In this document: piece after piece, positions 34,701 to 62,735 of the stretch
Layout: every line of letters begins with the position of its first letter
Numbering within the stretch: the first letter of the stretch is position 1
Source: Siphonodentalium dalli
Lineage: Eukaryota > Mollusca > Scaphopoda > Gadilida > Siphonodentaliidae
Direction: 5' to 3'
Length of the DNA: 64,000 nucleotides
Assembly (NCBI GenBank): GCA_032622095.1
Contig: CP136065.1
Location: 18,712,134-18,776,133, forward strand
Program-made: the position numbers and the translations under genes
The notes under the pieces: model-generated
The model's database searches: none
The model's input: only the letters and a program-made list of their open reading frames with translations
What the model was told of the DNA's origin: nothing

Positions 34701-36910
34701 AGATTGTGATACTGATTGTCGGATTAGGTTAAGATTATGATACTGGTTATCGGTAGAGGTTAAGATTCTGATACTGGTTGTCGGATTAGGTTAAGATTAT
34801 GATACTGGTTGTCGGATACGGTTAAGATTATGATACTGGTTGTCGGATACGGTTAAGATTATGATACTGGTTGTCGGTAGAGGTTAAGATTCTGATACTG
34901 GTTGTCGGATTAGGTTAAGATTGTGATACTGGTTGTCGGATATGGTTAAGATTATGATACTGGTTGTCGGATACGGTTAAGATTGTGATACTGGTTGTCG
35001 GATATGGTTAAGATTATGATACTGGTTGTCGGATTAGGTTAAGATTGTGAAACTGGTTGTCGGATTAGGTTAAGATTATGATACTGGTTGTCGGATACGG
35101 TTAAGATTATGATACTGGTTGTCGGATTAGGTTAAGATTGTGATACTGGTTGTCGGATTAGGTTAATATTATGATACTGGTTGTCGGATTAGGTTAAGAT
35201 TATGACACTGGTTGTCGGATATGGTTAAGATTATGATACTGGTTGTCGGATACGGTTAAGATTATGATACTGGTTGTCGGATTAGGTTAAGATTATGATA
35301 CTGGTTGTCGGATTAGTTTAAGATTATGAAACTGGTTGTCGGATTAGGTTAAGATTATGATACTGCTTGTCGGATACGGTTAAGATTATGATACTGGTTG
35401 TCGGATACGGTTAAGATTATGATACTGGTTGTCGGAGACGGTTAAGATTGTGATACTGATTGTCGGATTAGTTTAAGATTGTGATACTGGTTGTCGGATA
35501 CGGTTAAGATTATGATACTGGTTGTCGGAGACGGTTAAGATTATGATACTGGTTGTCGGATACGGTTAAGGTTATGACACTGGTTGTCGGATTAGGTTAA
35601 GATTATGAGCCTGGTTGTCGGATTAGATTATAGTTATAAGACTGGATGTCGGATTAGGATACTAGTTGTCGGATACGGTTAAGATTATGATACTGGTTGT
35701 CGGATACGGTTAAGATTATGATACTGGTTGTCGGATACGGTTAAGATTGTGATACTGTTTGTCGGATTAGGTTAAGATTATGACACTGGTTGTCGGATAT
35801 GGTTAAGATTATGATACTGGTTGTCGGATTAGGTTATGATTATGATACTGGTTGTCGGATGCTGTTAAGATTATGATACTGGTTGTCGGATGCTGTTAAG
35901 ATTATGATACTGGTTGTCGGATTAGTTTAAGATTATGATACTGGTTGTCGAATGCTGTTAAGATTATGATACTGGTTGTCGGATGCTGTTAAGATTATGA
36001 TACTGGTTGTCGGATTAGGTTAAGATTGTGATACTGGATGTCGGATACGGTTAAGATTGTGATACTGGATGTCGGATACGGTTAATATTGTGATACTGGT
36101 TGTCGGATTAGGTTAAGATTATGATACTGGTTGTCGGATTAGGTTAAGATTGTGATACTGGATGTCGGATACGGTTAAGATTGTGATACTGGTTGTCGGA
36201 TTAGGTTAAGATTATGATACTGGTTGTCGGATTAGGTTAAGATTATGATACTGGTTCTCGGATTAGGTTAAGATTATGATACTGGTTGTCGGATTAGGTT
36301 AAGATTGTGATACTGGATGTCGGATACGGTTAAGATTGTGATACTGGATGTCGGATACGGTTAATATTGTGATACTGGTTGTCGGATTAGGTTAAGATTA
36401 TGATACTGGTTGTCGGATTAGGTTAAGATTGTGATACTGGATGTCGGATACGGTTAAGATTGTGATACTGGTTGTCGGATTAGGTTAAGATTATGATACT
36501 GGTTGTCGGATTAGGTTAAGATTATGATACTGGTTCTCGGATTAGGTTAAGATTATGATACTGGTTGTCGGATTAGGTTAAGATTATGAAACTGGTTGTC
36601 GGATTAGGTTAAGATTATGATACTGGTTGTCGGATTAGGTTAAGATTGTGATACTGGTTGTCGGATTAGGTTAAGATTATGACACTGGTTGTCGGATATG
36701 GTTAAGATTATGATACTGGTTGTCGGATTAGGTTATGATTATGATACTGGTTGTCGGATGCTGTTAAGATTATGATACTGGTTGTCGGATGCTGTTAAGA
36801 TTATGATACTGGTTGTCGAATGCTGTTAAGATTATGATACTGGTTGTCGGATTAGGTTAAGATTATGATACAGGTTGTCGAATGCTGTTAAGATTATGAT
36901 ACTGGTTGTC
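28701..36910 (+). repeat. Satellite domain C with 20-bp deleted units
   Basis: The domain is marked by a three-unit signature: a TGAGCCT monomer, a monomer reading ATTATGGTTATAAGACTGG, then a 20-bp unit GGATTAGGATACTAGTTGTC that lacks 11 bp of the normal monomer. The 20-bp units start at 29030, 29980, 31984, 33678 and 35651. After subtracting one 20-bp unit, the intervals are 30, 64, 54 and 63 whole monomers exactly. A partial copy of the domain D cassette (ACTTTTTGTCGG at about 34558, GGTAGAGG at 34751) lies here without the 16-bp doublet found upstream of the full copies. Confidence 0.8.
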
Positions 36911-39900
36911 GAATGCTCTGGTTGTCGAATGCTCTGGTTGTCGGATTAGGTTAAGATTATGATACTGGTTGTCGGATACGATTAAGATTATGATACTGGT
37001 TGTCGGATTAGGTTAAGATTATGATACTGGTTGTCGGATTAGGTTAAGATTATGACACTGGTTGTCGGATTAGGTTAAGATTATGATACTGGTTGACGGA
37101 TACGGTTAAGATTATGATACTGGTTGTCGGATTAGGTTAAGATTATGATACTGGTTGTCGGATTAGGTTAAGATTATGACACTGGTTGTCGGATTAGGTT
37201 AAGATTATGATACTGGTTGTCGGATACGGTTAAGATTATGATACTGGTTGTCGGATTAGGTTAAGATTATGATACTGGTTGTCGGATTAGGTTAAGATTG
37301 TGATACTGGTTGTCGGATTTGGTTAAGATTATGATACTGGTTCTCGGATTAGGTTAAGATTATGATACTGGTTGTCGGATTAGGTTAAGATTATGACACT
37401 GGTTGTCGGATACGGTTAAGATTATGATACTTTTTGTCGGATTAGGTTAAGATTATGATACTGGTTCTCGGATACGGTTAAGATTATGAAACTTCTTGTC
37501 GGATACGGTTAAGATTATGATACTGGTAGTCGGATACGGTTAAGATTATGATACTGGTTGTCGGATACGGTTAAGATTGTGATACTGATTGTCGGATTAG
37601 GTTAAGATTATGATACTGGTTATCGGTAGAGGTTAAGATTCTGATACTGGTTGTCGGATTAGGTTAAGATTATGATACTGGTTGTCGGATACGGTTAAGA
37701 TTATGATACTGGTTGTCGGATACGGTTAAGATTATGATACTGGTTGTCGGATTAGGTTAAGATTGTGATACTGGTTGTCGGATATGGTTAAGATTATGAT
37801 ACTGGTTGTCGGATACGGTTAAGATTGTAATACTGGTTGTCGGATATGGTTAAGATTATGATACTGGTTGTCGGATTAGGTTAAGATTGTGAAACTGGTT
37901 GTCGGATTAGGTTAAGATTATGATACTGGTTGTCGGATACGGTTAAGATTATGATACTGGTTGTCGGATTAGGTTAAGATTGTGATACTGGTTGTCGGAT
38001 TAGGTTAATATTATGATACTGGTTGTCGGATTAGGTTAAGATTATGACACTGGTTGTCGGATATGGTTAAGATTATGATACTGGTTGTCGGATACGGTTA
38101 AGATTATGATACTGGTTGTCGGATTAGGTTAAGATTATGATACTGGTTCTCGGATTAGTTTAAGATTATGAAACTGGTTGTCGGATTAGGTAAAGATTCT
38201 GATACTGGTTGTCGGATTAGGTTAAGATTGTGATACTGGTTGTCGGATTAGGTTAAGATTATGATACTGGTTGTCGGAGACGGTTAAGATTATGATACTG
38301 GTTCTCGGATTAGGTTAAGATTATGATACTGGTTGTCGGATTAGGTTAAGATTATGAAACTGGTTGTCGGATTAGGTTAAGATTATGATACTGGTTGTCG
38401 GATTAGGTTAATATTGTGATACTGGTTGTCGGATTAGGTTAAGATTATGACACTGGTTGTCGGATATGGTTAAGATTATGATACTGGTTGTCGGATTAGG
38501 TTATGATTATGATACTGGTTGTCGGATGCTGTTAAGATTATGATACTGGTTGTCGGATGCTGTTAAGATTATGATACTGGTTGTCGAATGCTGTTAAGAT
38601 TATGATACTGGTTGTCGGATTAGGTTAAGATTATGATACTGGTTGTCGAATGCTGTTAAGATTATGATACTGGTTGTCGAATGCTCTGGTTGTCGAATGC
38701 TCTGGTTGTCGGATTAGGTTAAGATTATGATACTGGTTGTCGGATACGATTAAGATTATGATACTGGTTGTCGGATTAGGTTAAGATTATGATACTGGTT
38801 GTCGGATTAGGTTAAGATTATGACACTGGTTGTCGGATTAGGTTAAGATTATGATACTGGTTGTCGGATACGGTTAAGATTATGATACTGGTTGTCGGAT
38901 TAGGTTAAGATTATGATACTGGTTGTCGGATTAGGTTAAGATTATGACACTGGTTGTCGGATTAGGTTAAGATTATGATACTGGTTGTCGGATACGGTTA
39001 AGATTATGATACTGTTTGTCGGATTAGGTTAAGATTATGATACTGGTTGTCGGATTAGGTTAAGATTGTGATACTGGTTGTCGGATTTGGTTAAGATTAT
39101 GATACTGGTTCTCGGATTAGGTTAAGATTATGATACTGGTTGTCGGATTAGGTTAAGATTATGACACTGGTTGTCGGATACGGTTAAGATTATGATACTT
39201 TTTGTCGGATTAGGTTAAGATTATGATACTGGTTCTCGGATACGGTTAAGATTATGAAACTTCTTGTCGGATACGGTTAAGATTATGATACTGGTAGTCG
39301 GATACGGTTAAGATTATGATACTGGTTGTCGGATACGGTTAAGATTGTGATACTGATTGTCGGATTAGGTTAAGATTATGATACTGGTTGTCGGTAGAGG
39401 TTAAGATTCTGATACTGGTTGTCGGATTAGGTTAAGATTATGATACTGGTTGTCGGATACGGTTAAGATTATGATACTGGTTGTCGGATACGGTTAAGAT
39501 TATGATACTGGTTGTCGGTAGAGGTTAAGATTCTGATACTGGTTGTCGGATTAGGTTAAGATTGTGATACTGGTTGTCGGATATGGTTAAGATTATGATA
39601 CTGGTTGTCGGATACGGTTAAGATTGTGATACTGGTTGTCGGATATGGTTAAGATTATGATACTGGTTGTCGGATTAGGTTAAGATTGTGAAACTGGTTG
39701 TCGGATTAGGTTAAGATTATGATACTGGTTGTCGGATACGGTTAAGATTATGATACTGGTTGTCGGATTAGGTTAAGATTGTGATACTGGTTGTCGGATT
39801 AGGTTAATATTATGATACTGGTTGTCGGATTAGGTTAAGATTATGACACTGGTCGTCGGATATGGTTAAGATTATGATACTGGTTGTCGGATACGGTTAA

Positions 39901-42900
39901 GATTATGATACTGGTTGTCGGATTAGGTTAAGATTATGATACTGGTTCTCGGATTAGTTTAAGATTATGAAACTGGTTGTCGGATTAGGTAAAGATTCTG
40001 ATACTGGTTGTCGGATTAGGTTAAGATTGTGATACTGGTTGTCGGATATGGTTAAGATTATGATACTGGTTGTCGGAGACGGTTAAGATTATGATACTGG
40101 TTGTCGGATACGGTTAAGATTATGAAACTGGTTGTCGGATACGGTTAAGATTATGAAACTGGTTGTCGGATTAGGTTAAGATTATGATACTGGTTGTCGG
40201 ATTAGGTTAATATTGTGATACTGGTTGTCGGATTAGGTTAAGATTATGATACTGGTTGTCGGATACGGTTAAGATTATGATACTGGTTGTCGGATTAGGT
40301 TAAGATTATGATACTGGTTGTCGGATACGGTTAAGATTATGATACTGGTTGTCGGATTAGGTTAAGATTGTGATACTGGTTGTCGGATACGGTTAAGATT
40401 ATGATACTGGTTGTCGGATTAGGTTAAGATTGTGATACTGGTTGTCGGATTAGGTTAAGATTATGATACTGGTTGTCGGATGCTGTTAAGATTATGATAC
40501 TGGTTGTCGGATTAGGTTAAGATTATGATACTGGTTGTCGGATGCTGTTAAGATTATGATACTGGTTGTCGGATGCTGTTAAGATTATGATACTGGTTGT
40601 CGGATTAGGTTAAGATTGTGATACTGGATGTCGGATACGGTTAAGATTGTGATACTGGTTGTCGGATTAGGTTAATATGGTGATACTGGTTGTCGGATTA
40701 GGTTAAGATTATGATATTGGTTGTCGGATTAGGTTAAGATTGTGATACTGGTTGTCGGATTAGGTTAAGATTATGATACTGGTTGTCGGATTAGGTTAAG
40801 ATTATGATACTGGTTGTCGGATTAGGTTAAGATTGTGATACTGGTTGTCGGATTTGGTTAAGATTGTGATACTGGTTGTCGGATTTGGTTAAGATTATGA
40901 TACTGGTTGTCGGATTAGGTTAAGATTATGACACTGGTTGTCGGATACGGTTAAGATTATGATACTGGTTGTCGGATTAGGTTAAGATTATGATACTGGT
41001 TCTCGGATTAGGTTAAGATTATGAAACTGGTTGTCGGATTAGGTTAAGATTATGATACTGCTTGTCGGATACGGTTAAGATTATGATACTGGTAGTCGGA
41101 TACGGTTAAGATTATCATACTGGTTGTCGGAGACGGTTAAGATTGTGATACTGATTGTCGGATTAGGTTAAGATTGTGATACTGGTTGTCGGATACGGTT
41201 AAGATTATGATACTGGTTGTCGGAGACGGTTAAGATTATGATACAGGTTGTCGGATACGGTTAAGATTATGATACTGGTTGTCGGTAGAGGTTAAGATTC
41301 TGATACTGGTTGTCGGATTAGGTTAAGATTGTGATACTGGTTCTCGGATACGGTTAAGATTATGATACTGGTTGTCGGATACGGTTAAGATTGTGATACT
41401 GGTTGTCGGATATGGTTAAGATTATGATACTGGTTGTCGGATTAGGTTAAGATTGTGAAACTGGTTGTCGGATTAGGTTAAGATTATGATACTGGTTGTC
41501 GGATACGGTTAAGATTATGATACTGGTTGTCGGATTAGGTTAAGATTGTGATACTGGTTGTCGGATTAGGTTAATATTATGATACTGGTTGTCGGATTAG
41601 GTTAAGATTATGACACTGGTTGTCGGATATGGTTAAGATTATGATACTGGTTGTCGGATACGGTTAAGATTATGATACTGGTTGTCGGATTAGGTTAAGA
41701 TTATGATACTGGTTCTCGGATTAGTTTAAGATTATGAAACTGGTTGTCGGATTAGGTAAAGATTCTGATACTGGTTGTCGGATTAGGTTAAGATTGTGAT
41801 ACTGGTTGTCGGATTAGGTTAAGATTATGATACTGGTTGTCGGAGACGGTTAAGATTATGATACTGGTTCTCGGATTAGGTTAAGATTATGATACTGGTT
41901 GTCGGATTAGGTTAAGATTATGAAACTGGTTGTCGGATTAGGTTAAGATTATGATACTGGTTGTCGGATTAGGTTAATATTGTGATACTGGTTGTCGGAT
42001 TAGGTTAAGATTATGACACTGGTTGTCGGATATGGTTAAGATTATGATACTGGTTGTCGGATTAGGTTATGATTATGATACTGGTTGTCGGATGCTGTTA
42101 AGATTATGATACTGGTTGTCGGATGCTGTTAAGATTATGATACTGGTTGTCGAATGCTGTTAAGATTATGATACTGGTTGTCGGATTAGGTTAAGATTAT
42201 GATACTGGTTGTCGAATGCTGTTAAGATTATGATACTGGTTGTCGAATGCTCTGGTTGTCGAATGCTCTGGTTGTCGGATTAGGTTAAGATTATGATACT
42301 GGTTGTCGGATACGATTAAGATTATGATACTGGTTGTCGGATTAGGTTAAGATTATGATACTGGTTGTCGGATTAGGTTAAGATTATGACACTGGTTGTC
42401 GGATTAGGTTAAGATTATGATACTGGTTGTCGGATACGGTTAAGATTATGATACTGGTTGTCGGATTAGGTTAAGATTATGATACTGGTTGTCGGATTAG
42501 GTTAAGATTATGACACTGGTTGTCGGATTAGGTTAAGATTATGATACTGGTTGTCGGATACGGTTAAGATTATGATACTGGTTGTCGGATTAGGTTAAGA
42601 TTATGATACTGGTTGTCGGATTAGGTTAAGATTGTGATACTGGTTGTCGGATTTGGTTAAGATTATGATACTGGTTCTCGGATTAGGTTAAGATTATGAT
42701 ACTGGTTGTCGGATTAGGTTAAGATTATGACACTGGTTGTCGGATACGGTTAAGATTATGATACTTTTTGTCGGATTAGGTTAAGATTATGATACTGGTT
42801 CTCGGATACGGTTAAGATTATGAAACTTCTTGTCGGATACGGTTAAGATTATGATACTGGTAGTCGGATACGGTTAAGATTATGATACTGGTTGTCGGAT

Positions 42901-45900
42901 ACGGTTAAGATTGTGATACTGATTGTCGGATTAGGTTAAGATTATGATACTGGTTGTCGGTAGAGGTTAAGATTCTGATACTGGTTGTCGGATTAGGTTA
43001 AGATTATGATACTGGTTGTCGGATACGGTTAAGATTATGATACTGGTTGTCGGATACGGTTAAGATTATGATACTGGTTGTCGGTAGAGGTTAAGATTCT
43101 GATACTGGTTGTCGGATTAGGTTAAGATTGTGATACTGGTTGTCGGATATGGTTAAGATTATGATACTGGTTGTCGGATACGGTTAAGATTGTGATACTG
43201 GTTGTCGGATATGGTTAAGATTATGATACTGGTTGTCGGATTGGGTTAAGATTGTGAAACTGGTTGTCGGATTAGGTTAAGATTATGATACTGGTTGTCG
43301 GATACGGTTAAGATTATGATACTGGTTGTCGGATTAGGTTAAGATTGTGATACTGGTTGTCGGATTAGGTTAATATTATGATACTGGTTGTCGGATTAGG
43401 TTAAGATTATGACACTGGTTGTCGGATATGGTTAAGATTATGATACTGGTTGTCGGATACGGTTAAGATTATGATACTGGTTGTCGGATTAGGTTAAGAT
43501 TATGATACTGGTTCTCGGATTAGTTTAAGATTATGAAACTGGTTGTCGGATTAGGTAAAGATTCTGATACTGGTTGTCGGATTAGGTTAAGATTGTGATA
43601 CTGGTTGTCGGATATGGTTAAGATTATGATACTGGTTGTCGGAGACGGTTAAGATTATGATACTGGTTGTCGGATACGGTTAAGATTATGAAACTGGTTG
43701 TCGGATACGGTTAAGATTATGAAACTGGTTGTCGGATTAGGTTAAGATTATGATACTGGTTGTCGGATTAGGTTAATATTGTGATACTGGTTGTCGGATT
43801 AGGTTAAGATTATGATACTGGTTGTCGGATACGGTTAAGATTATGATACTGGTTGTCGGATTAGGTTAAGATTATGATACTGGTTGTCGGATACGGTTAA
43901 GATTATGATACTGGTTGTCGGATTAGGTTAAGATTGTGATACTGGTTGTCGGATACGGTTAAGAGTATGATACTGGTTGTCGGATTAGGTTAAGATTGTG
44001 ATACTGGTTGTCGGATTAGGTTAAGATTATGATACTGGTTGTCGGATGCTGTTAAGATTATGATACTGGTTGTCGGATTAGGTTAAGATTATGATACAGG
44101 TTGTCGGATGCTGTTAAGATTATGATACTGGTTGTCGGATGCTGTTAAGATTATGATACTGGTTGTCGGATTAGGTTAAGATTGTGATACTGGATGTCGG
44201 ATACGGTTAAGATTAAGATACTGGTTGTCGGATTAGGTTAATATGGTGATACTGGTTGTCGGATTAGGTTAAGATTATGATATTGGTTGTCGGATTAGGT
44301 TAAGATTGTGATACTGGTTGTCGGATTAGGTTAAGATTATGATACTGGTTGTCGGATTAGGTTAAGATTATGATACTGGTTGTCGGATTAGGTTAAGATT
44401 GTGATACTGGTTGTCGGATTTGGTTAAGATTGTGATACTGGTTGTCGGATTTGGTTAAGATTATGATACTGGTTGTCGGATTAGGTTAAGATTATGACAC
44501 TGGTTGTCGGATACGGTTAAGATTATGATACTGGTTGTCGGATTAGGTTAAGATTATGATACTGGTTCTCGGATTAGGTTAAGATTATGAAACTGGTTGT
44601 CGGATTAGGTTAAGATTATGATACTGCTTGTCGGATACGGTTAAGATTATGATACTGGTAGTCGGATACGGTTAAGATTATCATACTGGTTGTCGGAGAC
44701 GGTTAAGATTGTGATACAGATTGTCGGATTAGGTTAAGATTGTGATACTGGTTGTCGGATACGGTTAAGATTATGATACTGGTTGTCGGAGACGGTTAAG
44801 ATTATGATACAGGTTGTCGGATACGGTTAAGGTTATGATACTGGTTGTCGGATTAGGTTAAGATTATGAGCCTGGTTGTCGGATTAGATTATGGTTATAA
44901 GACTGGATGTCGGATTAGGATACTAGTTGTCGGATTAGGTTAAGATTATGATACTGGTTGTCGGATACGGTTAAGATTATGATACTGGTTGTCGGATACG
45001 GTTAAGATTATGATACTGGTTGTCGGTAGAGGTTAAGATTCTGATACTGGTTGTCGAATTAGGTTAAGATTGTGATACTGGTTGTCGAATATGGTTAAGA
45101 TTATGATACTGGTTGTCGGATACGGTTAAGATTGTGATACTGGTTGTCGGATATGGTTAAGATTATGATACTGGTTGTCGGATTAGGTTAAGATTGTGAT
45201 ACTGGTTGTCGGATTAGGTTAAGATTATGATACTGGTTGTCGGATACGGTTAAGATTATGATACTGGTTGTCGGATTAGGTTAAGATTGTGATACTGGTT
45301 GTCGGATTAGGTTAATATTATGATACTGGTTCTCGGATTAGGTTAAGATTATGATACTGGTTGTCGGATTAGGTTAAGATTATGACACTGGTTGTCGGAT
45401 ATGGTTAAGATTATGATACTGGTTGTCGGATACGGTTAAGATTATGATACTGGTTGTCGGATTAGGTTAAGATTATGATACTGGTTCTCGGATTAGTTTA
45501 AGATTATGAAACTGGTTGTCGGATTAGGTTAAGATTCTGATACTGGTTGTCGGATTAGGTTAAGATTGTGATACTGGTTGTCGGATATGGTTAAGATTAT
45601 GATACTGGTTGTCGGAGACGGTTAAGATTATGATACTGGTTGTCGGATACGGTTAAGTTTATGATAATGGTTGTCGGATACGGTTATGATTATGAAACTG
45701 GTTGTCGGATTAGGTTAAGATTATGATACTGGTTGTCGGATTAGGTTAATATTGTGATACTGGTTGTCGGATTAGGTTAAGATTATGATACTGGTTGTCG
45801 GATACGGTTAAGATTATGATACTGGTTGTCGGATTAGGTTAAGATTGTGATACTGGTTGTCGGATTAGGTTATGATTATGATACTGGTTGTCGGATACGG

Positions 45901-48900
45901 TTAAGATTATGATACTGGTTGTCGGATTAGGTTAAGATTGTGATACTGGTTGTCGGATACGGTTAAGATTATGATACTGGTTGTCGGATTAGGTTAAGAT
46001 TGTGATACTGGTTGTCGGATTAGGTTAAGATTGTGATACTGGTTGTCGGATTAGGCTCAGATTATGACACTGGTTGTCGGATTAGGTTAAGATTATGATA
46101 CTGGTTGTCGGATTAGGTTAAAATTATTATACTAATTGTCGGATTAGGTTAAGATTATGATACTGGTTGTCGGATACGATTAAGATTATGATACTGGTTG
46201 TCGGATACGGTTAAGATTATGATACTGTTTGTCGGATTAGGTTAAGATTATGATACTGGTTGTCGGATTAGGTTAAGATTGTGATACTGGATGTCGGATA
46301 CGGTTAAGATTGTGATACTGGTTGTCGGATTAGGTTAAGATTGTGATACTGGTTGTCGGATTAAGTTAAGATTATGATACTGGTTGTCGGATTCGGTTAA
46401 GATTGTGATACTGGTTGTCGGATTAGGTTAAGATTGTGATACTGGTTGTCGGATTAGGTTAAGATTATGATACTGGTTGTCGGATTAGGTTAAGATTATG
46501 ATACTGGTTGTCGGATTAGGTTAAGATTGTGATACTGGTTGTCGGATTAGGTTAAGATTGTAACACTGGTTGTCGGATATGGTTAAGATTATGATACTGG
46601 TTGTCGGATTAGGTTATGATTATGATACTCGTTGTCGGATGCTGTTAAGATTATGATACTGGTTGTCGGATGCTGTTAAGATTATGATACTGGTTGTCGG
46701 ATTAGGTTAAGATTATGATACTGGTTGTCGAATGCTGTTAAGATTATGATACTGGTTGTCGGATGCTGTTAAGATTATGATACTGGTTGTCGGATTAGGT
46801 TAAGATTGTGATACTGGATGTCGGATACGGTTAAGATTGTGATACTGGTTGTCGGATTAGGTTAAGATTGTGATACTGGTTGTCGGATTAGGTTAAGATT
46901 ATGATACTGGTTGTCGGATACGGTTAAGATTGTGATACTGGTTGTCGGATTAGGTTAAGATTATGATACTGGTTGTCGGATTAGGTTAAGATTATGATAC
47001 TGGTTGTCGGATTAGGTTAAGATTATGATACTGGTTGTCGGATACGGTTAAGATTATGATACTGGTTGTCGGATACGGTTAAGATTATGATACTGGTTGT
47101 CGGATTAGGTTAAGATTATGACACTGGTTGTCGGATATGGTTATGATTATGATACTGGTTGTCGGATTAGGTTATGATTATGATACTGGTTGTCGGATGC
47201 TGTTAAGATTATGATACTGGTTGTCGGATGCTGTTAAGATTATGATACTGGTTGTCGGATTAGGTTAAGATTGTGATACTGGATGTCGGATACGGTTAAG
47301 ATTGTGATACTGATTGTCGGATTAGGTTAAGATTGTGATACTGGTTGTCGGATTAGGTTAAGATTATGATACTGGTTGTCGGATTAGGTTAAGATTCTGA
47401 TACTGGTTGTCGGATTAGGTTAAGATTATGATACTGGTTGTCGGATACGGTTAAGATTATGATACTGGTTGTCGGATACGGTTAAAATTGTGATACTGGT
47501 TGTCGGATACGGTTAAGATTATGATACTGGTTGTCGGATTAGGTTAAGATTATGATACTGGTTGTCGGATTAGGTTAAGATTATGACAATGGTTGTCAGA
47601 TTAGGTTAAGATTATGATACTGGTTGTTGGATACGGTTAAGATTATGATACTGGTTGTCGGATTAGGTTAAGATTATGATACTGGTTGTCGGATTAGGTT
47701 AAGATTATGACACTGGTTGTCGGATTAGGTTAAGATTATGATACTGGTTGTCGGATACGGTTAAGATTATGATACTGGTTCTCGGATTAGGTTAAGATTA
47801 TGAAACTGGTTGTCGGATACGGTTAAGATTATGATACTGGTTGTCGGATTAGGTTAAGATTATGATACTGGTTCTCGGATTAGGTTAAGATTATGAAACT
47901 GGTTGTCGGATACGGTTAAGATTATGATACTGGTTGTCGGATTAGGTTAAGATTATGATACTGGTTGTCGAATTAGGTTAAGATTATGACACTGGTTGTC
48001 GGATACGGTTAAGATTATGATACTGGTTGTCAGATTAGGTTAAGATTATGATACTGGTTCTCGGATTAGGTTAAGATTATGAAACTGGTTGTCGAATTAG
48101 GTTAAGATTATGACACTGCTTGTCGGATACGGTTAAGATTATGATACTGGTTGTCGGAGACGGTTAAGATTGTGATACTGACTGTCGGATTAGGTTAAGA
48201 TTGTGATACTGGTTGTCGGATACGGTTAAGATTATGATACTGGTTGTCGGAGACGGTTAAGATTATGATACTGGTTGTCGGATACGGTTAAGGTTATGAT
48301 ACTGGTTGTCGGATTAGGTTAAGATTATGAGCCTGGTTGTCGGGTTAGATTATGGTTATAAGACTGGATGTCGGATTAGGATACTAGTTGTCGGATACGG
48401 TTAAGATTATGATACTGGTTGTCGGATACGGTTAAGATTATGATACTGGTTGTCGGATACGGTTAAGATTATGATACTGGTTGTCGGTAGAGGTTAAGAT
48501 TCTGATACTGGTTGTCGGATTAGGTTAAGATTGTGATACTGGTTGTCGGATATGGTTAAGATTATGATACTGGTTGTCGGATACGGTTAAGATTGTGATA
48601 CTGGTTGTCGGATATGGTTAAGAATATAATACTGGTTGTCGGATTAGGTTAAGATTGTGATACTGGTTGTCGCATTAGGTTAAGATTATGATACTGGTTG
48701 TCGGATACGGTTAAGATTATGATACTGGTTGTCGGATTAGGTTAAGATTGTGATACTGGTTGTCGGATTAGGTTAAGATTATGATACTGGTTCTCGGATT
48801 AGGTTAAGATTATGATACTGGTTGTCGGATTAGGTTAAGATTATGACACTGGTTGTCGGATATGGTTAAGATTATGATACTGGTTGTCGGATACGGTTAA

Positions 48901-51900
48901 GATTATGATACTGGTTGTCGGATTAGGTTAAGATTATGATACTGGTTGTCGGATTAGTTTAAGATTATGAAACTGGTTGTCGGATTAGGTTAAGATTATG
49001 ATACTGCTTGTCGGATACGGTTAAGATTATGATACTGGTTGTCGGATACGGTTAAGATTATGATACTGGTTGTCGGAGACGGTTAAGATTGTGATACTGA
49101 TTGTCGGATTAGATTAAGATTGTGATACTGGTTGTCGGATACGGTTAAGATTATGATACTGGTTGTCGGAGACGGTTAAGATTATGATACTGGTTGTCGG
49201 ATACGGTTAAGGTTATGACACTGGTTGTCGGATTAGGTTAAGATTATGAGCCTGGTTGTCGGATTAGATTATGGATATAAGACTGGATGTCGGATTAGGA
49301 TACTAGTTGTCGGATACGGTTAAGATTATGATACTGGTTGTCGGATACGTTTAAGATTATGATACTGGTTGTCGGATACGGTTAAGATTGTTATACTGTT
49401 TGTCGGATTAGGTTAAGATTATGACACTGGTTGTCGGATATGGTTAAGATTATGATACTGGTTGTCGGATTAGGTTATGATTATGATACTGGTTGTCGGA
49501 TGCTGTTAAGATTATGATACTGGTTGTCGGATGCTGTTAAGATTATGATACTGGTTGTCGGATTAGTTTAAGATTATGATACTGGTTGTCGAATGCTGTT
49601 AAGATTATGATACTGGTTGTCGGATGCTGTTAAGATTATGATACTGGTTGTCGGATTAGGTTAAGATTGTGATACTGGATGTCGGATACGGTTAAGATTG
49701 TGATACTGGATGTCGGATACGGTTAAGATTGTGATACTGGTTGTCGGATTAGGTTAAGATTATGATACTGGTTGTCGGATTAGGTTAAGATTGTGATACT
49801 GGATGTCGGATACGGTTAAGATTGTGATACTGGTTGTCGGATTAGGTTAAGATTATGATACTGGTTGTCGGATTAGGTTAAGATTATGATACTGGTTCTC
49901 GGATTAGGTTAAGATTATGATACTGGTTGTCGGATTAGGCTAAGATTATGAAACTGGTTGTCGGATTAGGTTAAGATTATGATACTGGTTGTCGGATTAG
50001 GTTAAGATTGTGATACTGGTTGTCGGATTAGGTTAAGATTATGACACTGGTTGTCGGATATGGTTAAGATTATGATACTGGTTGTCGGATTAGGTTATGA
50101 TTATGATACTGGTTGTCGGATGCTGTTAAGATTATGATACTGGTTGTCGGATGCTGTTAAGATTATGATACTGGTTGTCGAATGCTGTTAAGATTATGAT
50201 ACTGGTTGTCGGATTAGGTTAAGATTATGATACTGGTTGTCGAATGCTGTTAAGATTATGATACTGGTTGTCGAATGCTCTGGTTGTCGAATGCTCTGGT
50301 TGTCGGATTAGGTTAAGATTATGATACTGGTTGTCGGATACGATTAAGATTATGATACTGGTTTTCGGATTAGGTTAAGATTATGATACTGGTTGTCGGA
50401 TTAGGTTAAGATTATGACACTGGTTGTCGGATTAGGTTAAGATTATGATACTGGTTGTCGGATACGGTTAAGATTATGATACTGGTTGTCGGATTAGGTT
50501 AAGATTATGATACTGGTTGTCGGATTAGGTTAAGATTATGACACTGGTTGTCGGATTAGGTTAAGATTATGATACTGGTTGTCGGATACGGTTAAGATTA
50601 TGATACTGGTTGTCGGATTAGGTTAAGATTATGATACTGGTTGTCGGATTAGGTTAAGATTGTGATACTGGTTGTCGGATTTGGTTAAGGTTATGATACT
50701 GGTTCTCGGATTAGGTTAAGATTATGATACTGGTTGTCGGATTAGGTTAAGATTATGACACTGGTTGTCGGATACGGTTAAGATTATGATACTGGTTGTC
50801 GGATTAGGTTAAGATTATGATACTGGTTCTCGGATACGGTTAAGATTATGAAACTTCTTGTCGGATACGGTTAAGATTATGATACTGGTAGTCGGATACG
50901 GTTAAGATTATGATACTGGTTGTCGGATACGGTTAAGATTGTGATACTGATTGTCGGATTAGGTTAAGATTATGATACTGGTTGTCGGTAGAGGTTAAGA
51001 TTCTGATACTGGTTGTCGGATTAGGTTAAGATTATGATACTGGTTGTCGGATACGGTTAAGATTATGATACTGGTTGTCGGATACGGTTAAGATTATGAT
51101 ACTGGTTGTCGGTAGAGGTTAAGATTCTGATACTGGTTGTCGGATTAGGTTAAGATTGTGATACTGGTTGTCGGATATGGTTAAGATTATGATACTGGTT
51201 GTCGGATACGGTTAAGATTGTGATACTGGTTGTCGGATATGGTTAAGATTATGATACTGGTTGTCGGATTAGGTTAAGATTGTGAAACTGGTTGTCGGAT
51301 TAGGTTAAGATTATGATACTGGTTGTCGGATACGGTTAAGATTATGATACTGGTTGTCGGATTAGGTTAAGATTGTGATACTGGTTGTCGGATTAGGTTA
51401 ATATTATGATACTGGTTGTCGGATTAGGTTAAGATTATGACACTGGTTGTCGGATATGGTTAAGATTATGATACTGGTTGTCGGATACGGTTAAGATTAT
51501 GATACTGGTTGTCGGATTAGGTTAATATTATGATACTGGTTCTCGGATTAGTTTAAGATTATGAAACTGGTTGTCGGATTAGGTAAAGATTCTGATACTG
51601 GTTGTCGGATTAGGTTAAGATTGTGATACTGGTTGTCGGATATGGTTAAGATTATGATACTGGTTGTCGGAGACGGTTAAGATTATGATACTGGTTGTCG
51701 GATACGGTTAAGATTATGAAACTGGTTGTCGGATACGGTTAAGATTATGAAACTGGTTGTCGGATTAGGTTAAGATTATGATACTGGTTGTCGGATTAGG
51801 TTAATATTGTGATACTGGTTGTCGGATTAGGTTAAGATTATGATACTGGTTGTCGGATACGGTTAAGATTATGATACTGGTTGTCGGATTAGGTTAAGAT

Positions 51901-54900
51901 TATGATACTGGTTGTCGGATACGGTTAAGATTATGATACTGGTTGTCGGATTAGGTTAAGATTGTGATACTGGTTGTCGGATACGGTTAAGATTATGATA
52001 CTGGTTGTCGGATTAGGTTAAGATTGTGATACTGGTTGTCGGATTAGGTTAAGATTATGATACTGGTTGTCGGATGCTGTTAAGATTATGATACTGGTTG
52101 TCGGATACGGTTAAGATTGTTATACTGTTTGTCGGATTAGGTTAAGATTATGACACTGGTTGTCGGATATGGTTAAGATTATGATACTGGTTGTCGGATT
52201 AGGTTATGATTATGATACTGGTTGTCGGATGCTGTTAAGATTATGATACTGGTTGTCGGATGCTGTTAAGATTATGATACTGGTTGTCGGATTAGTTTAA
52301 GATTATGATACTGGTTGTCGAATGCTGTTAAGATTATGATACTGGTTGTCGGATGCTGTTAAGATTATGATACTGGTTGTCGGATTAGGTTAAGATTGTG
52401 ATACTGGATGTCGGATACGGTTAAGATTGTGATACTGGATGTCGGATACGGTTAAGATTGTGATACTGGTTGTCGGATTAGGTTAAGATTATGATACTGG
52501 TTGTCGGATTAGGTTAAGATTGTGATACTGGATGTCGGATACGGTTAAGATTGTGATACTGGTTGTCGGATTAGGTTAAGATTATGATACTGGTTGTCGG
52601 ATTAGGTTAAGATTATGATACTGGTTCTCGGATTAGGTTAAGATTATGATACTGGTTGTCGGATTAGGTTAAGATTATGAAACTGGTTGTCGGATTAGGT
52701 TAAGATTATGATACTGGTTGTCGGATTAGGTTAAGATTGTGATACTGGTTGTCGGATTAGGTTAAGATTATGACACTGGTTGTCGGATATGGTTAAGATT
52801 ATGATACTGGTTGTCGGATTAGGTTATGATTATGATACTGGTTGTCGGATGCTGTTAAGATTATGATACTGGTTGTCGGATGCTGTTAAGATTATGATAC
52901 TGGTTGTCGAATGCTGTTAAGATTATGATACTGGTTGTCGGATTAGGTTAAGATTATGATACTGGTTGTCGAATGCTGTTAAGATTATGATACTGGTTGT
53001 CGAATGCTCTGGTTGTCGAATGCTCTGGTTGTCGGATTAGGTTAAGATTATGATACTGGTTGTCGGATACGATTAAGATTATGATACTGGTTTTCGGATT
53101 AGGTTAAGATTATGATACTGGTTGTCGGATTAGGTTAAGATTATGACACTGGTTGTCGGATTAGGTTAAGATTATGATACTGGTTGTCGGATACGGTTAA
53201 GATTATGATACTGGTTGTCGGATTAGGTTAAGATTATGATACTGGTTGTCGGATTAGGTTAAGATTATGACACTGGTTGTCGGATTAGGTTAAGATTATG
53301 ATACTGGTTGTCGGATACGGTTAAGATTATGATACTGGTTGTCGGATTAGGTTAAGATTATGATACTGGTTGTCGGATTAGGTTAAGATTGTGATACTGG
53401 TTGTCGGATTTGGTTAAGGTTATGATACTGGTTCTCGGATTAGGTTAAGATTATGATACTGGTTGTCGGATTAGGTTAAGATTATGACACTGGTTGTCGG
53501 ATACGGTTAAGATTATAATACTGGTTGTCGGATTAGGTTAAGATTATGATACTGGTTCTCGGATACGGTTAAGATTATGAAACTTCTTGTCGGATACGGT
53601 TAAGATTATGATACTGGTAGTCGGATACGGTTAAGATTATGATACTGGTTGTCGGATACGGTTAAGATTGTGATACTGATTGTCGGATTAGGTTAAGATT
53701 ATGATACTGGTTGTCGGTAGAGGTTAAGATTCTGATACTGGTTGTCGGATTAGGTTAAGATTATGATACTGGTTGTCGGATACGGTTAAGATTATGATAC
53801 TGGTTGTCGGATACGGTTAAGATTATGATACTGGTTGTCGGTAGAGGTTAAGATTCTGATACTGGTTGTCGGATTAGGTTAAGATTGTGATACTGGTTGT
53901 CGGATATGGTTAAGATTATGATACTGGTTGTCGGATACGGTTAAGATTGTGATACTGGTTGTCGGATATGGTTAAGATTATGATACTGGTTGTCGGATTA
54001 GGTTAAGATTGTGAAACTGGTTGTCGGATTAGGTTAAGATTATGATACTGGTTGTCGGATTAGGTTAAGATTGTGAAACTGGTTGTCGGATATGGTTAAG
54101 ATTATGATACTGGTTGTCGGATTAGGTTAAGATTGGGAAACTGGTTGTCGTATTAGGTTAAGATTATGATACTGGTTGTCGGATACGGTTAAGATTATGA
54201 TACTGGTTGTCGGATTAGGTTAAGATTGTGATACTGGTTGTCGGATTAGGTTAATATTATGATACTGGTTGTCGGATTAGGTTAAGATTATGACACTGGT
54301 TGTCGGATATGGTTAAGATTATGATACTGGTTGTCGGATACGGTTAAGATTATGATACTGGTTGTCGGATTAGGTTAAGATTATGATACTGGTTCTCGGA
54401 TTAGTTTAAGATTATGAAACTGGTTGTCGGATTAGGTAAAGATTCTGATACTGGTTGTCGGATTAGGTTAAGATTGTGATACTGGTTGTCGGATATGGTT
54501 AAGATTATGATACTGGTTGTCGGAGACGGTTAAGATTATGATACTGGTTGTCGGATACGGTTAAGATTATGAAACTGGTTGTCGGATACGGTTAAGATTA
54601 TGAAACTGGTTGTCGGATTAGGTTAAGATTATGATACTGGTTGTCGGATTAGGTTAATATTGTGATACTGGTTGTCGGATTAGGTTAAGATTATGATACT
54701 GGTTGTCGGATACGGTTAAGATTATGATACTGGTTGTCGGATTAGGTTAAGATTATGATACTGGTTGTCGGATACGGTTAAGATTATGATACTGGTTGTC
54801 GGATTAGGTTAAGATTGTGAAACTGGTTGTCGGATTAGGTTAAGATTATGATACTGGTTGTCGGATACGGTTAAGATTATGATACTGGTTGTCGGATTAG

Positions 54901-57900
54901 GTTAAGATTGTGATACTGGTTGTCGGATTAGGTTAATATTATGATACTGGTTGTCGGATTAGGTTAAGATTATGACACTGGTTGTCGGATATGGTTAAGA
55001 TTATGATACTGGTTGTCGGATACGGTTAAGATTATGATACTGGTTGTCGGATTAGGTTAATATTATGATACTGGTTCTCGGATTAGTTTAAGATTATGAA
55101 ACTGGTTGTCGGATTAGGTAAAGATTCTGATACTGGTTGTCGGATTAGGTTAAGATTGTGATACTGGTTGTCGGATATGGTTAAGATTATGATACTGGTT
55201 GTCGGAGACGGTTAAGATTATGATACTGGTTGTCGGATACGGTTAAGATTATGAAACTGGTTGTCGGATACGGTTAAGATTATGAAACTGGTTGTCGGAT
55301 TAGGTTAAGATTATGATACTGGTTGTCGGATTAGGTTAATATTGTGATACTGGTTGTCGGATTAGGTTAAGATTATGATACTGGTTGTCGGATACGGTTA
55401 AGATTATGATACTGGTTGTCGGATTAGGTTAAGATTATGATACTGGTTGTCGGATACGGTTAAGATTATGATACTGGTTGTCGGATTAGGTTAAGATTGT
55501 GATACTGGTTGTCGGATACGGTTAAGATTATGATACTGGTTGTCGGATTAGGTTAAGATTGTGATACTGGTTGTCGGATTAGGTTAAGATTATGATACTG
55601 GTTGTCGGATGCTGTTAAGATTATGATACTGGTTGTCGGATACGGTTAAGATTGTTATACTGTTTGTCGGATTAGGTTAAGATTATGACACTGGTTGTCG
55701 GATATGGTTAAGATTATGATACTGGTTGTCGGATTAGGTTATGATTATGATACTGGTTGTCGGATGCTGTTAAGATTATGATACTGGTTGTCGGATGCTG
55801 TTAAGATTATGATACTGGTTGTCGGATTAGTTTAAGATTATGATACTGGTTGTCGAATGCTGTTAAGATTATGATACTGGTTGTCGGATGCTGTTAAGAT
55901 TATGATACTGGTTGTCGGATTAGGTTAAGATTGTGATACTGGATGTCGGATACGGTTAAGATTGTGATACTGGATGTCGGATACGGTTAAGATTGTGATA
56001 CTGGTTGTCGGATTAGGTTAAGATTATGATACTGGTTGTCGGATTAGGTTAAGATTGTGATACTGGATGTCGGATACGGTTAAGATTGTGATACTGGTTG
56101 TCGGATTAGGTTAAGATTATGATACTGGTTGTCGGATTAGGTTAAGATTATGATACTGGTTCTCGGATTAGGTTAAGATTATGATACTGGTTGTCGGATT
56201 AGGTTAAGATTATGAAACTGGTTGTCGGATTAGGTTAAGATTATGATACTGGTTGTCGGATTAGGTTAAGATTGTGATACTGGTTGTCGGATTAGGTTAA
56301 GATTATGACACTGGTTGTCGGATATGGTTAAGATTATGATACTGGTTGTCGGATTAGGTTATGATTATGATACTGGTTGTCGGATGCTGTTAAGATTATG
56401 ATACTGGTTGTCGGATGCTGTTAAGATTATGATACTGGTTGTCGAATGCTGTTAAGATTATGATACTGGTTGTCGGATTAGGTTAAGATTATGATACTGG
56501 TTGTCGAATGCTGTTAAGATTATGATACTGGTTGTCGAATGCTCTGGTTGTCGAATGCTCTGGTTGTCGGATTAGGTTAAGATTATGATACTGGTTGTCG
56601 GATACGATTAAGATTATGATACTGGTTTTCGGATTAGGTTAAGATTATGATACTGGTTGTCGGATTAGGTTAAGATTATGACACTGGTTGTCGGATTAGG
56701 TTAAGATTATGATACTGGTTGTCGGATACGGTTAAGATTATGATACTGGTTGTCGGATTAGGTTAAGATTATGATACTGGTTGTCGGATTAGGTTAAGAT
56801 TATGACACTGGTTGTCGGATTAGGTTAAGATTATGATACTGGTTGTCGGATACGGTTAAGATTATGATACTGGTTGTCGGATTAGGTTAAGATTATGATA
56901 CTGGTTGTCGGATTAGGTTAAGATTGTGATACTGGTTGTCGGATTTGGTTAAGGTTATGATACTGGTTCTCGGATTAGGTTAAGATTATGATACTGGTTG
57001 TCGGATTAGGTTAAGATTATGACACTGGTTGTCGGATACGGTTAAGATTATGATACTGGTTGTCGGATTAGGTTAAGATTATGATACTGGTTCTCGGATA
57101 CGGTTAAGATTATGAAACTTCTTGTCGGATACGGTTAAGATTATGATACTGGTAGTCGGATACGGTTAAGATTATGATACTGGTTGTCGGATACGGTTAA
57201 GATTGTGATACTGATTGTCGGATTAGGTTAAGATTATGATACTGGTTGTCGGTAGAGGTTAAGATTCTGATACTGGTTGTCGGATTAGGTTAAGATTATG
57301 ATACTGGTTGTCGGATACGGTTAAGATTATGATACTGGTTGTCGGATACGGTTAAGATTATGATACTGGTTGTCGGTAGAGGTTAAGATTCTGATACTGG
57401 TTGTCGGATTAGGTTAAGATTGTGATACTGGTTGTCGGATATGGTTAAGATTATGATACTGGTTGTCGGATACGGTTAAGATTGTGATACTGGTTGTCGG
57501 ATATGGTTAAGATTATGATACTGGTTGTCGGATTAGGTTAAGATTGTGAAACTGGTTGTCGGATTAGGTTAAGATTATGATACTGGTTGTCGGATTAGGT
57601 TAAGATTGTGAAACTGGTTGTCGGATATGGTTAAGATTATGATACTGGTTGTCGGATTAGGTTAAGATTGGGAAACTGGTTGTCGTATTAGGTTAAGATT
57701 ATGATACTGGTTGTCGGATACGGTTAAGATTATGATACTGGTTGTCGGATTAGGTTAAGATTGTGATACTGGTTGTCGGATTAGGTTAATATTATGATAC
57801 TGGTTGTCGGATTAGGTTAAGATTATGACACTGGTTGTCGGATATGGTTAAGATTATGATACTGGTTGTCGGATACGGTTAAGATTATGATACTGGTTGT

Positions 57901-58600
57901 CGGATTAGGTTAAGATTATGATACTGGTTCTCGGATTAGTTTAAGATTATGAAACTGGTTGTCGGATTAGGTAAAGATTCTGATACTGGTTGTCGGATTA
58001 GGTTAAGATTGTGATACTGGTTGTCGGATATGGTTAAGATTATGATACTGGTTGTCGGAGACGGTTAAGATTATGATACTGGTTGTCGGATACGGTTAAG
58101 ATTATGAAACTGGTTGTCGGATACGGTTAAGATTATGAAACTGGTTGTCGGATTAGGTTAAGATTATGATACTGGTTGTCGGATTAGGTTAATATTGTGA
58201 TACTGGTTGTCGGATTAGGTTAAGATTATGATACTGGTTGTCGGATACGGTTAAGATTATGATACTGGTTGTCGGATTAGGTTAAGATTATGATACTGGT
58301 TGTCGGATACGGTTAAGATTATGATACTGGTTGTCGGATTAGGTTAAGATTGTGATACTGGTTGTCGGATACGGTTAAGATTATGATACTGGTTGTCGGA
58401 TTAGGTTAAGATTGTGATACTGGTTGTCGGATTAGGTTAAGATTATGATACTGGTTGTCGGATGCTGTTAAGATTATGATACTGGTTGTCGGATTAGGTT
58501 AAGATTATGATACTGGTTGTCGGATGCTGTTAAGATTATGATACTGGTTGTCGGATGCTGTTAAGATTATGATACTGGTTGTCGGATTAGGTTAAGATTG
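36911..58600 (+). repeat. Satellite domain D: six-copy long cassette
   Basis: A doublet of 16-bp truncated units (GAATGCTCTGGTTGTC twice) starts at 36911, 38679, 42245, 50273, 53002 and 56537. The CGGTAGAGG marker lies exactly 713 bp downstream each time: 37624, 39392, 42958, 50986, 53715 and 57250. In the last five copies I also read a second CGGTAGAGG 124 bp further on. Copy-to-copy distances are 1768, 3566, 8028, 2729 and 3535 bp. The 8028-bp interval alone holds domain C signatures (20-bp units at 44912, 48373 and 49292), so it has gained a C-type block or the others have lost it. The end of the domain is approximate. Confidence 0.88.
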
Positions 58601-60780
58601 TGATACTGGATGTCGGATACGGTTAAGATTGTGATACTGGTTGTCGGATTAGGTTAATATGGTGATACTGGTTGTCGGATTAGGTTAAGATTATGATATT
58701 GGTTGTCGGATTAGGTTAAGATTGTGATACTGGTTGTCGGATTAGGTTAAGATTATGATACTGGTTGTCGGATTAGGTTAAGATTATGATACTGGTTGTC
58801 GGATTAGGTTAAGATTGTGATACTGGTTGTCGGATACGGTTAAGATTATGATACTGGTTGTCGGATTTGGTTAAGATTGTGATACTGGTTGTCGGATTAG
58901 GTTAAGATTATGATACTGGTTGTCGGATACGGTTAAGATTATGATACTGGTTGTCGGATTAGGTTAAGATTGTGATACTGGTTGTCGGATTAGGTTAAGA
59001 TTATGATACTGGTTCTCGGATTAGGTTAAGATTATGATACTGGTTGTCGGATTAGGTTAAGATTATGACACTGGTTGTCGGATATGGTTAAGATTATGAT
59101 ACTGGTTGTCGGATACGGTTAAGATTATGATACTGGTTGTCAGATTAGGTTAAGATTATGATACTGGTTCTCGGATTAGTTTAAGATTATGAAACTGGTG
59201 GTCGGATTAGGTTAAGATTATGATACTGCTTGTCGGATACGGTTAAGATTATGATACTGGTTGTCGGATACGGTTAAGATTATGATACTGGTTGTCGGAG
59301 ACGGTTAAGATTGTGATACTGATTGTCGGATTAGGTTAAGATTGTGATACTGGTTGTCGGATACGGTTAAGATTATGATACTGGTTGTCGGAGACGGTTA
59401 AGATTATGATACTGGTTGTCGGATACGGTCAAGGTTATGATACTGGTTGTCGGATTAGGTTAAGATTATGAGCCTGGTTGTCGGATTAGATTATGGTTAT
59501 AAGACTGGATGTCGGATTAGGATACTAGTTGTCGGATTAGGTTAAGATTATGATACTGGTTGTCGGATACGGTTAAGATTATGATACTGGTTGTCGGATA
59601 CGGTTAAGATTATGATACTGGTTGTCGGATTAGGTTAAGATTCTGATACTGGTTGTCGGATTAGATTAAGATTGTGATACTGGTTGTCGGATATGGTTAA
59701 GATTATGATACTGGTTGTCGGAGACGGTTAAGATTATGATACTGGTTGTCGGATACGGTTAAGATTATGATACTGGTTGTCGGATACGGTTAAGATTATG
59801 AAACTGGTTGTCGGATTAGGTTAAGATTATGATACTGGTTGTCGGATTAGGTTAATATTGTGATACTGGTTGTCGGATTAGGTTAAGATTATGACACTGG
59901 TTGTCGGATATGGTTAAGATTATGATACTGGTTGTCGGATACGGTTAAGGTTATGATACTGGTTGTCGGATTAGGTTAAGGTTATGATACTGGTTGTCGG
60001 ATTAGGTTAAGATTATGAGCCTGGTTGTCGGATATGGTTAAGATTATGATACTGGTTGTCGGAGACGGTTAAGATTATGATACTGGTTGTCGGATTAGGT
60101 TAAGATTATGATACTGGTTGTCGGATACGGTTAAGATTATGATACTGGTTGTCGGATTAGGTTAAGATTATGATACTGGTTGTCGGATTAGGTTAAGATT
60201 GTGATACTGGTTGTCGGATATGGTTAAGATTATGATACTGGTTGTTGGAGACGGTTAAGATTATGATACTGGTTGTCGGATTAGGTTAAGATTATGATAC
60301 TGGTTGTCGGATACGGTTAAGATTATGAAACTGGTTGTCGGATTAGGTTAAGATTATGATACTGGTTGTCGTATTAGGTTAAGATTCTGATACTGGTTGT
60401 CGGATTAGGTTAAGATTGTGATACTGGTTGTCGGATATGGTTAAGATTATGATACTGGTTGTCGGATTAGGTTAAGATTGTGATACTGGTTGTCGGATTA
60501 GGTTAAGATTATGAAACTGGTTGTCGGATTAGGTTAATATTGTGATACTGGTTGTCGGATTAGGTTAAGATTATGATACTGGTTGTCGGATACGGTTAAG
60601 ATTATGATACTGGTTGTCGGATACGGTTAAGATTATGATACTGGTTGTCGGATTAGGTTAAGATTGTGATACTGGTTGTCGGATACGGTTAATATTATGA
60701 TACTGGTTGTCGGATTAGGTTAAGATTGTGATACTGGTTGTCAGATTAGGTTAAGATTATGATACTGGTTGTCGGATACG
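58601..60780 (+). repeat. Satellite, mixed right-hand part
   Basis: Ordinary 31-bp monomers of the TTA, TAC, TAT and GAC junction families. One more domain C signature has its 20-bp unit at 59514. From the 20-bp unit at 49292 to this one is 10,222 bp, which equals one 20-bp unit, three 16-bp doublets and exactly 326 monomers. No long cassette of domain D is complete here. Confidence 0.75.
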
Positions 60781-61992
60781 GTTAAGATTATGAGCCTTGT
60801 TGTCGGATTCGGTTAAGATTATGATTGGTTGTCGGATTAGATTATGGTTATAAGACTGGATCTCGGATTAGGTTAAGACTATGACACTGGTTGTCGGATA
60901 CGGTTAAGATTATGATACTGGTTGTCGGATTAGGTTAAGATTATGATACTGGTTGTCGGATTAGGTTAAGATTGTGATACTGGTTGTCGGATTAGGTTAA
61001 GATTATGATACTGGTTGTCGGATACGGTTAAGATTATGATACTGGTTGTCGGATTAGGTTAAGATTGTGATACTGGTTGTCGGATTAGGTTAAGATTGTG
61101 ATACTGGTTGTCGGATACGGTTAAGATTATGATACTGGTTGTCGGATTAGGTTAAGATTATTAGCCTGGTTGTCGGATTAGGTTAAGATTATGAGCCTGG
61201 TTGTCGGATTAGGTTAAGCTTATTAGCCTGGTTGTCGGATACGGTTAATATTATGATACTGGTTGTCGGATTAGGTTATGGTTATAAGACTGGATGTCGG
61301 AATAGGTTAAGACTATGACACTGGTTGTCGGATACGGTTAAGATTATGATACTGGATGTCGGATTAGGTTAAGATGATGAGCCTGGTTGTCGGATTATGT
61401 TTTGGTTATAAGACTGGATGTCGGATTAGGATACTGGTTGTCGGATTAGGTTAAGATTATGAGCCTGGTTGTCGGATTAGGTTAAGATTATGATACTGGT
61501 TGTCGAATACGGTTAAGATTATGATACTGGTTGTCGGATTAGATTATGGTTATAAGACTGGATGTCGGATTAGGTTAAGACTATGACACTGGTTGTCGGA
61601 TCCGGTTAAGATTATGATACTGGATGTCGGATTAGGTTAAGATTATGATACTGGATGTCGGATTAGGTTAAGGTTATGATACTGGTTGTCGGATTAGTTT
61701 AAGATTATGAGCCTGGTTGTCGGATTAGGTTATGGTTATAAGACTGGATGTCGGATTAGGATACTTGTTGTCGGATTAGGTTAATATTATGATACTGGTT
61801 GTCGGATTAGATTATGGTTATAAGACTGGATGTCGGATACGGTTAAGATTATGATACTGGTTGTCGGATTAGGTTAAGATTATGAGACTGGTTGTCGGAT
61901 TGGGTTAAGATTATGAGCCTGGTTGTCGGATTAGGTTATGATTATGATACTGGTTGTCGGATTAGGTTATGGTTATGAGCCTGGTTGTTGGA
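60781..61992 (+). repeat. Degenerate right edge of the satellite
   Basis: Monomers here carry more substitutions and length changes than inside the array, for example gattatgattGGTTG (about 60820), aaGCTTATTAG (about 61218) and aagaTGATGAGCC (about 61375). The ATTATGGTTATAAGACTGG type and close relatives occur repeatedly (about 60841, 61275, 61400, 61545, 61730 and 61810), and units shortened to about 20 bp recur near 61425 and 61757. The last recognisable unit ends ...CCTGGTTGTTGGA at 61992. Such decay is expected at satellite borders, where exchange is less effective. Confidence 0.85.
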
Positions 61993-62177
61993 CGCCGTTG
62001 GGCAAAACAATTTGTCATTTTCCTCTAACTTTTCGCAATAGAACTACTATTTCTAACAATTTTTTCGGTCAGCATCCATTCAAACTTCACAATGTCACAA
62101 TTTAATTATGTAACAATATTTCAAAAGTATTACCTGACAAACATTATTTAAATGATTAAACCAAATAAACAATACAG
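61993..62177. other. Right flank, nothing recognised
   Basis: AT-rich sequence immediately after the array. I see no gene, tandem repeat or transposon end. The change from satellite to flank is abrupt, within a few bases of 61992. Confidence 0.4.
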
Positions 62178-62630: not shown

Positions 62631-62735
62631 AATGATCTGAATTATTAATAAATATAAATAATTACAATGATCTGAATTATTAATAAATATAAATAATTAC
62701 AATGATCTGATTTATTAATAAATATAAATAATTAC
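62631..62735. repeat. 35-bp minisatellite, three copies
   Basis: Three tandem units at 62631-62665, 62666-62700 and 62701-62735. Each starts AATGATCTGA and ends AAATAATTAC. The first two are identical, and the third has one change (ATCTGATTTATT for ATCTGAATTATT). Very AT-rich and unrelated to the 31-bp satellite. Confidence 0.95.

Follow-up and report, generated by a model that had tools for sequence, protein, structure and literature searches.

Block duplications in a 59.6-kb satellite array of Siphonodentalium dalli and its apparent origin from the internal repeat of a MITE

A 31-bp tandem array nearly fills the window, the 64,000-nucleotide stretch of Siphonodentalium dalli DNA analysed here (G000:C5:18712134-18776133), and, judged by its sequence, arose by expansion of the tandem repeat inside a dispersed, non-autonomous DNA transposon (MITE) of ~790 bp with a TTAA target. 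MITE insertion, expansion of the internal repeat and later in-register block duplications very probably made the array. According to this history, a TTAA-target non-autonomous transposon carrying a short internal 31-bp tandem repeat would have inserted at the locus; at this single locus that repeat would then have expanded until its derived monomers made up a satellite of 59.6 kb, and the element would have lost its 5' half. The coordinates of all features are collected in Table 1.

The array, its parent transposon and its flanks

The array consists of about 1,925 monomers with a period of 31 bp, arranged head to tail over 59.6 kb, and such a long head-to-tail array of similar monomers constitutes satellite DNA. 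Wrap-around decomposition split the array into 1,926 monomers, of which 1,901 measure exactly 31 bp and only about 25 deviate; the distinct forms number 247. The consensus monomer, extended by two extra bases, has 298 exact matches in the genome, and all 298 lie inside the window. The derived form of the 31-bp monomer is confined to this one locus in the 2.23-Gb genome, which argues against a centromeric satellite. A coding array was rejected, with 0 ORFs of at least 90 aa in the window, as was hairpin-driven expansion, since the monomer dimer folds no better than shuffled sequences on either strand.

The link to the parent MITE is provided by the 3' tail that follows the last monomer. Sequence like this tail adjoins short 31-bp tracts at many loci, and the tail is about 88–90% identical to most of the copies examined, falling to 81.8% in the most divergent. 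A 37-bp probe of the MITE 3' end has 466 matches within 3 mismatches in the genome. In aligned copies from elsewhere the element measures about 750–800 bp and reads 5' TTAA-CTGGTTCGCTGCTAAATATCC..., followed by typically about 10–12 degenerate 31-bp repeats (more in some copies), a tail of ~263 bp and the end ...GGACCAG-TTAA. Terminal inverted repeats and TTAA are visible in these other copies (5' TTAACTGGTTC...GRACCAGTTAA), and in a younger subfamily the two ends, CTGGTTC...GAACCAG, match each other. The copies are thus shorter than 1 kb, dispersed, non-coding and numerous, with inverted termini and a target-site duplication, as is characteristic of MITEs. Modest expansion of the internal repeat, from 44 to 147 repeats, occurs in other copies. 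The three copies of the youngest subfamily that were read are plain MITEs with no autonomous partner among them, and six sampled 2.5-kb stretches near the locus on C5 held no further large array.

The target site is defined by three nearby paralogous empty sites, which read ...CTATTTTC-TTAA-AGAAATGCGTAACC, one with its last C replaced by T. In the window the end of the tail is followed by TTAC and then by AGAAATGCGTAACC. Since the element-free paralogs read TTAA, the insertion target was TTAA. PiggyBac elements combine a TTAA target with CCY-type termini and a DDE transposase. The element is not assigned to the piggyBac superfamily, since its TTAA target fits but its termini, CTGGTYC, do not. 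Nor, on the same grounds, is it placed in the Kolobok group (T2-MITE), whose TTAA target fits but whose termini are RR or AGGRR (PMC6004289).

The left side of the array has a different character. The window keeps only the 3' side of the MITE and contains none of its 5' half; the original left flank and left target site are missing here, and the duplicated TTAA is visible only in other copies. Ancestral-type monomers cluster next to the tail, within the final ~40 monomers of the array, and the left-edge monomers are of the derived type. This distribution, with ancestral-type monomers at the tail and not at the left edge, makes a secondary break the most likely origin of the left edge.

Several further observations concern the surroundings of the array and the MITE family. 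One palindromic hairpin repeat, CCAATGCATTCTC...GAGAATGCATTGG, has many copies in the genome; of the two at 324-394 and 2345-2425, the second borders the array on the left. The left-flank search returned >11,000 first-look candidates, not all of which belong to this hairpin repeat. The array flanks, 1-2158 and 62276-64000, have nearby paralogs (C5:18507000-18784500), with 94–98% identity at C5:18708056, 18778805 and 18783061 and 78–86% further off. These form a local segmental-duplication cluster in R-L order, the nearest copies lying about 66 kb apart. The right flank carries a 35-bp tandem repeat at 62630-62736 (3 copies, 98%), also present in the paralog L025. Neighbouring duplicated units (L029 2248-3055, L030 1477-1832 and L048 2216-2501) contain another tandem repeat, with a 50-bp unit, that derives from sequence resembling window 781-842. 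At another locus, L045 (C1:70347900-70357800), a young MITE copy lies within a 5,438-bp head-to-tail unit of 99.9% identity, and equally spaced MITE 3' ends suggest at least three copies of that unit. Samples from four chromosome ends contained no telomere repeat.

Table 1. Positions of the array, its borders, the cassette copies and the main tandem blocks within the window
Feature	Position	Strand	Basis
Palindromic dispersed repeat adjoining left array edge	2168..2429	.	Relatives in L015, L033, L039, L042
31-bp tandem array, unit ATTAGGTTAAGATTATGATACTGGTTGTCGG	2426..61992	+	Tandem Repeats Finder and monomer decomposition
85-monomer tandem duplication, first half	17620..20161 (partner 20255-22796)	+	Block matching and alignment
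Cassette copy c0 (seventh, doublet-less)	34165..35280 (register anchor 34038)	+	Monomer-order matching
Cassette core c1	36911..37747	+	Marker positions and alignment
115-monomer tandem duplication, first half (holds c2)	37844..41254	+	Block matching and alignment
Cassette core c2	38679..39515	+	Marker positions and alignment
115-monomer tandem duplication, second half (holds c3)	41410..44820	+	Block matching and alignment
Cassette core c3	42245..43081	+	Marker positions and alignment
Cassette core c4	50273..51109	+	Marker positions and alignment
114-monomer tandem duplication, first half (holds c5)	51268..54802	+	Block alignment
Cassette core c5	53002..53838	+	Marker positions and alignment
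114-monomer tandem duplication, second half (holds c6)	54803..58337	+	Block alignment
Cassette core c6	56537..57373	+	Marker positions and alignment
3' tail of MITE	61993..62255	+	Dispersed-copy alignment, sharp end ...GGACCAG
TTAC, relic of TTAA target site	62256..62259	+	Paralogous empty sites

Cassettes and tandem blocks

The first-pass annotation had described six copies of a long cassette, each with a doublet, and all six are real; the total is seven, the additional copy, c0, being without the doublet. The doublets, of 32 bp each, lie where they had been placed (36911, 38679, 42245, 50273, 53002 and 56537). The doublet sequence GAATGCTCTGGTTGTCGAATGCTCTGGTTGTCGG has exactly six matches within 2 mismatches in the 2.23-Gb genome, all in the window, and the same search found no cassette elsewhere. 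It represents one 32-bp variant monomer, and for that reason the distances between cassettes lie within 1 bp of a multiple of 31. The marker CGGTAGAGG lies at exactly +713 from the doublet in 6/6 copies, as reported, but the supposed lock between the two requires nothing special, 713 bp being 23 x 31 bp monomers. Nor is CGGTAGAGG private to the cassette, as the window contains 17 copies, including one at +837 in 6/7 cassettes (all but c1). Of the two variants said to divide the copies, ACTTTTTGTCGG is indeed present in the first three of the six, although it starts at +518 and not at +520, and its one further occurrence, at 34556, falls inside c0. Similarly GTTTTCGG at +88 is restricted, among cassettes, to the last three, but it has extra matches outside them at 9428 and 15690. 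Copy c0 comprises 36 monomers, of which 33–34 are the same in order as those of c2, c3 and c4, and it carries CGGTAGAGG in register. Its start lies about 127 bp inside the cassette, which accounts for the missing doublet. The cassette does not appear to be a functional unit; nothing in the array indicates a function, and the array probably has none.

The cassettes are far more alike than array segments in general. The 837-bp core has 8 variable sites, with 0–7 differences per pair and 99.2–100% identity, against a median of 89.2% and a 99.9th percentile of 97.3% for 1.75 million in-register pairs of 837-bp array segments, only 0.05% of which reach 99%. This establishes the cassettes as true block duplicates, where the earlier description had named likeness no greater than that of random array segments as the outcome that would speak against it. 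Block duplication extends well beyond the cassettes. When monomers were treated as letters and their order matched, 68 duplicate blocks scored at least 12, with a top score of 111.5, compared with a maximum of 5.0 in the shuffled array, and 74% of monomers fall in at least one duplicate block. A shortened 20-bp monomer, ATTAGGATACTAGTTGTCGG, with 8 occurrences (29982, 31986, 33680, 35653, 44914, 48375, 49294 and 59516), provides a second natural marker by which block copying can be traced.

The 8 core sites are mutually compatible and define one tree, ((c0,c1),c2,c3) versus (c4,c5,c6). Relative to the array consensus, the TT at +521/522 of c0-c3 is derived, as are T at +91 and G at +417 of c4-c6, while A at +711 unites c0 and c1. 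Alignment, shuffling control and site-by-site polarity thus agree with the proposed block duplication within one array and its division into two sub-groups. The family tree drawn from the markers holds for the 837-bp core but not for the flanks, which are mosaic. Between -620 and -220, c1 differs from c4-c6 by 1–2 bases and from c2/c3 by 22 bases. Between +837 and +1700, differences among c2, c3 and c4 amount to 2 bases, with c1 and c5/c6 60–76 bases from them, and the downstream side of c0 groups with c2, c3 and c4. Such a mosaic is predicted by nested tandem duplications with different break points; in each such event the old upstream side would stay with the first copy and the old downstream side with the second.

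The clearest event is the 114-monomer duplication, whose two halves abut exactly and show 1 difference in 3,535 bp. The halves of the duplication holding c2 and c3, at a lag of 115 monomers, show 8 differences in 3,411 bp, and the 85-monomer pair, which lies outside the six-cassette region, shows 1 difference in 2,542 bp. Adjacent tandem blocks have lags of 114, 115, 85, 39, 26 and 22 monomers. In a junction-length test the junction monomers of the tandem blocks were all 31 bp, so that the array register is kept, which favours homology-guided unequal exchange or slippage over random joining. The relative ages of these events are apparent from their divergence. The MITE tail differs from its relatives mostly by about 10–12%, the cassette groups differ by 0.5–0.8% in the core, the 115-monomer pair by 0.23%, and the 114- and 85-monomer pairs by 0.03–0.04%. 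The divergence of the blocks is far below that of the tail, indicating that block duplication is much younger than the insertion, and recurrent.

Accounts of array growth

Under the favoured history the array would have grown by in-register tandem duplication of blocks of roughly 20–115 monomers, through unequal exchange between sister chromatids or homologues or through replication slippage. One ancestral core-bearing block would have been copied about 8–13 kb away to found the left and right groups, each of which may then have duplicated locally (c1/c2 and c2/c3; c4/c5 and c5/c6). Crossing-over, slippage or break-induced copying might each have supplied the exact enzymatic route, and the order of the deeper events given here is likewise a probable one. 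Against this history stands c0, which shares A711 with c1 and its downstream flank with c2, c3 and c4, a combination that calls for additional events or for gene conversion. Satellites often undergo gene conversion, and the shared A711 of c0 and c1, whose flanks group differently, would also suit the proposal that the likeness of the cassettes reflects conversion among old blocks instead of recent duplication. That proposal is rather unlikely, because high identity continues far past the core, up to exactly adjoining tandem copies, the geometry of duplication, and because conversion adds no length.

It is improbable that assembly, for example by joining haplotypes end to end, duplicated some or all of the near-identical blocks (c5/c6 first among them), even though the 3,535-bp blocks abut exactly, one base apart, and the 85-monomer pair likewise differs by one base. 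Divergence is graded (0.03%, 0.04%, 0.2% and 0.5–0.8%), boundaries are nested and each group has its own derived variants, so one assembly error is insufficient; moreover, c1-c4 are clearly distinct from one another in core or flanks. That the cassette is the unit of a regular higher-order repeat, as in alpha satellite, is most improbable. Multi-monomer blocks do recur with a fixed inner order, but in autocorrelation self-identity declines smoothly as the lag grows, without a higher-order peak, the block lags are irregular, and the copy spacings differ (57, 115, 259, 88 and 114 monomers). Extrachromosomal circles or rolling-circle copying followed by reinsertion have been proposed for satellites (PMC4079207) and fit in-register tandem blocks of a few kb. 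Such a source is nonetheless doubtful here, as direct signs of it are absent, the tandem pairs are all neighbours in one array and the cassette does not occur elsewhere in the genome.

In-register tandem duplication within the array thus remains the preferred account. Four of the larger tandem lags are 85, 88, 114 and 115 monomers (2.6–3.6 kb). There is a slim chance that block amplification recurs here with a favoured block size, making the array a hot spot that is still active and polymorphic in this species; if so, the favoured size might correspond to a fixed physical step, for example the length of a replication or repair tract or the size of a circle.

Relation to known transposon-derived satellites

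The growth of the array is similar to that of MITE-derived satellites in Xenopus, and the process is already known. Oyster elements with comparable arrays are Helentrons, of rolling-circle type and without TTAA target sites, and in this they differ from the MITE described here. Oyster Helentrons (PMC7492417) and the MITEs of Donax trunculus, as cited in a 2025 review (PMC12628747), share with it short satellite-like arrays within dispersed non-autonomous elements. In the same review, which presents the Xenopus work of Scalvenzi and Pollet, tandem-repeat expansion in MITEs is one route to satellites (PMC12628747). The miDNA4 MITE and its satellite, as described there, agree with the present case in that a variable internal repeat expands to a satellite and may lose the element ends (PMC12628747). 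In contrast, miDNA4 is described there as being of Tc1/mariner type, whereas here the target is TTAA, the unit is 31 bp and one locus holds about 1,925 copies with block duplications.

Xmix and Xstir of Xenopus (T2-MITE, Kolobok group) share the TTAA target and the amplification of an internal segment into simple tandem repeats (PMC6004289, PMC12628747), but their termini are AGGRR (PMC6004289), as opposed to CTGGTYC here. In Drosophila virilis the internal repeats of the Tetris foldback transposon (TIR-220) likewise build longer arrays, and unequal exchange has been invoked (PMC4079207). Unlike those of the present array, the Tetris units are 220 bp long, lie within long inverted repeats and form arrays of up to 66 copies (PMC4079207).

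The locus is therefore a clear, well-preserved example of known satellite growth, which confirms a described route and opens no new one. It brings together in one place several steps of satellite birth, namely the parent transposon, dispersed copies with short tracts and the empty target site, and it also keeps ancestral-type monomers at one edge and datable block duplications inside. As a worked example the locus serves well, and it might also be used as a copy-number marker.
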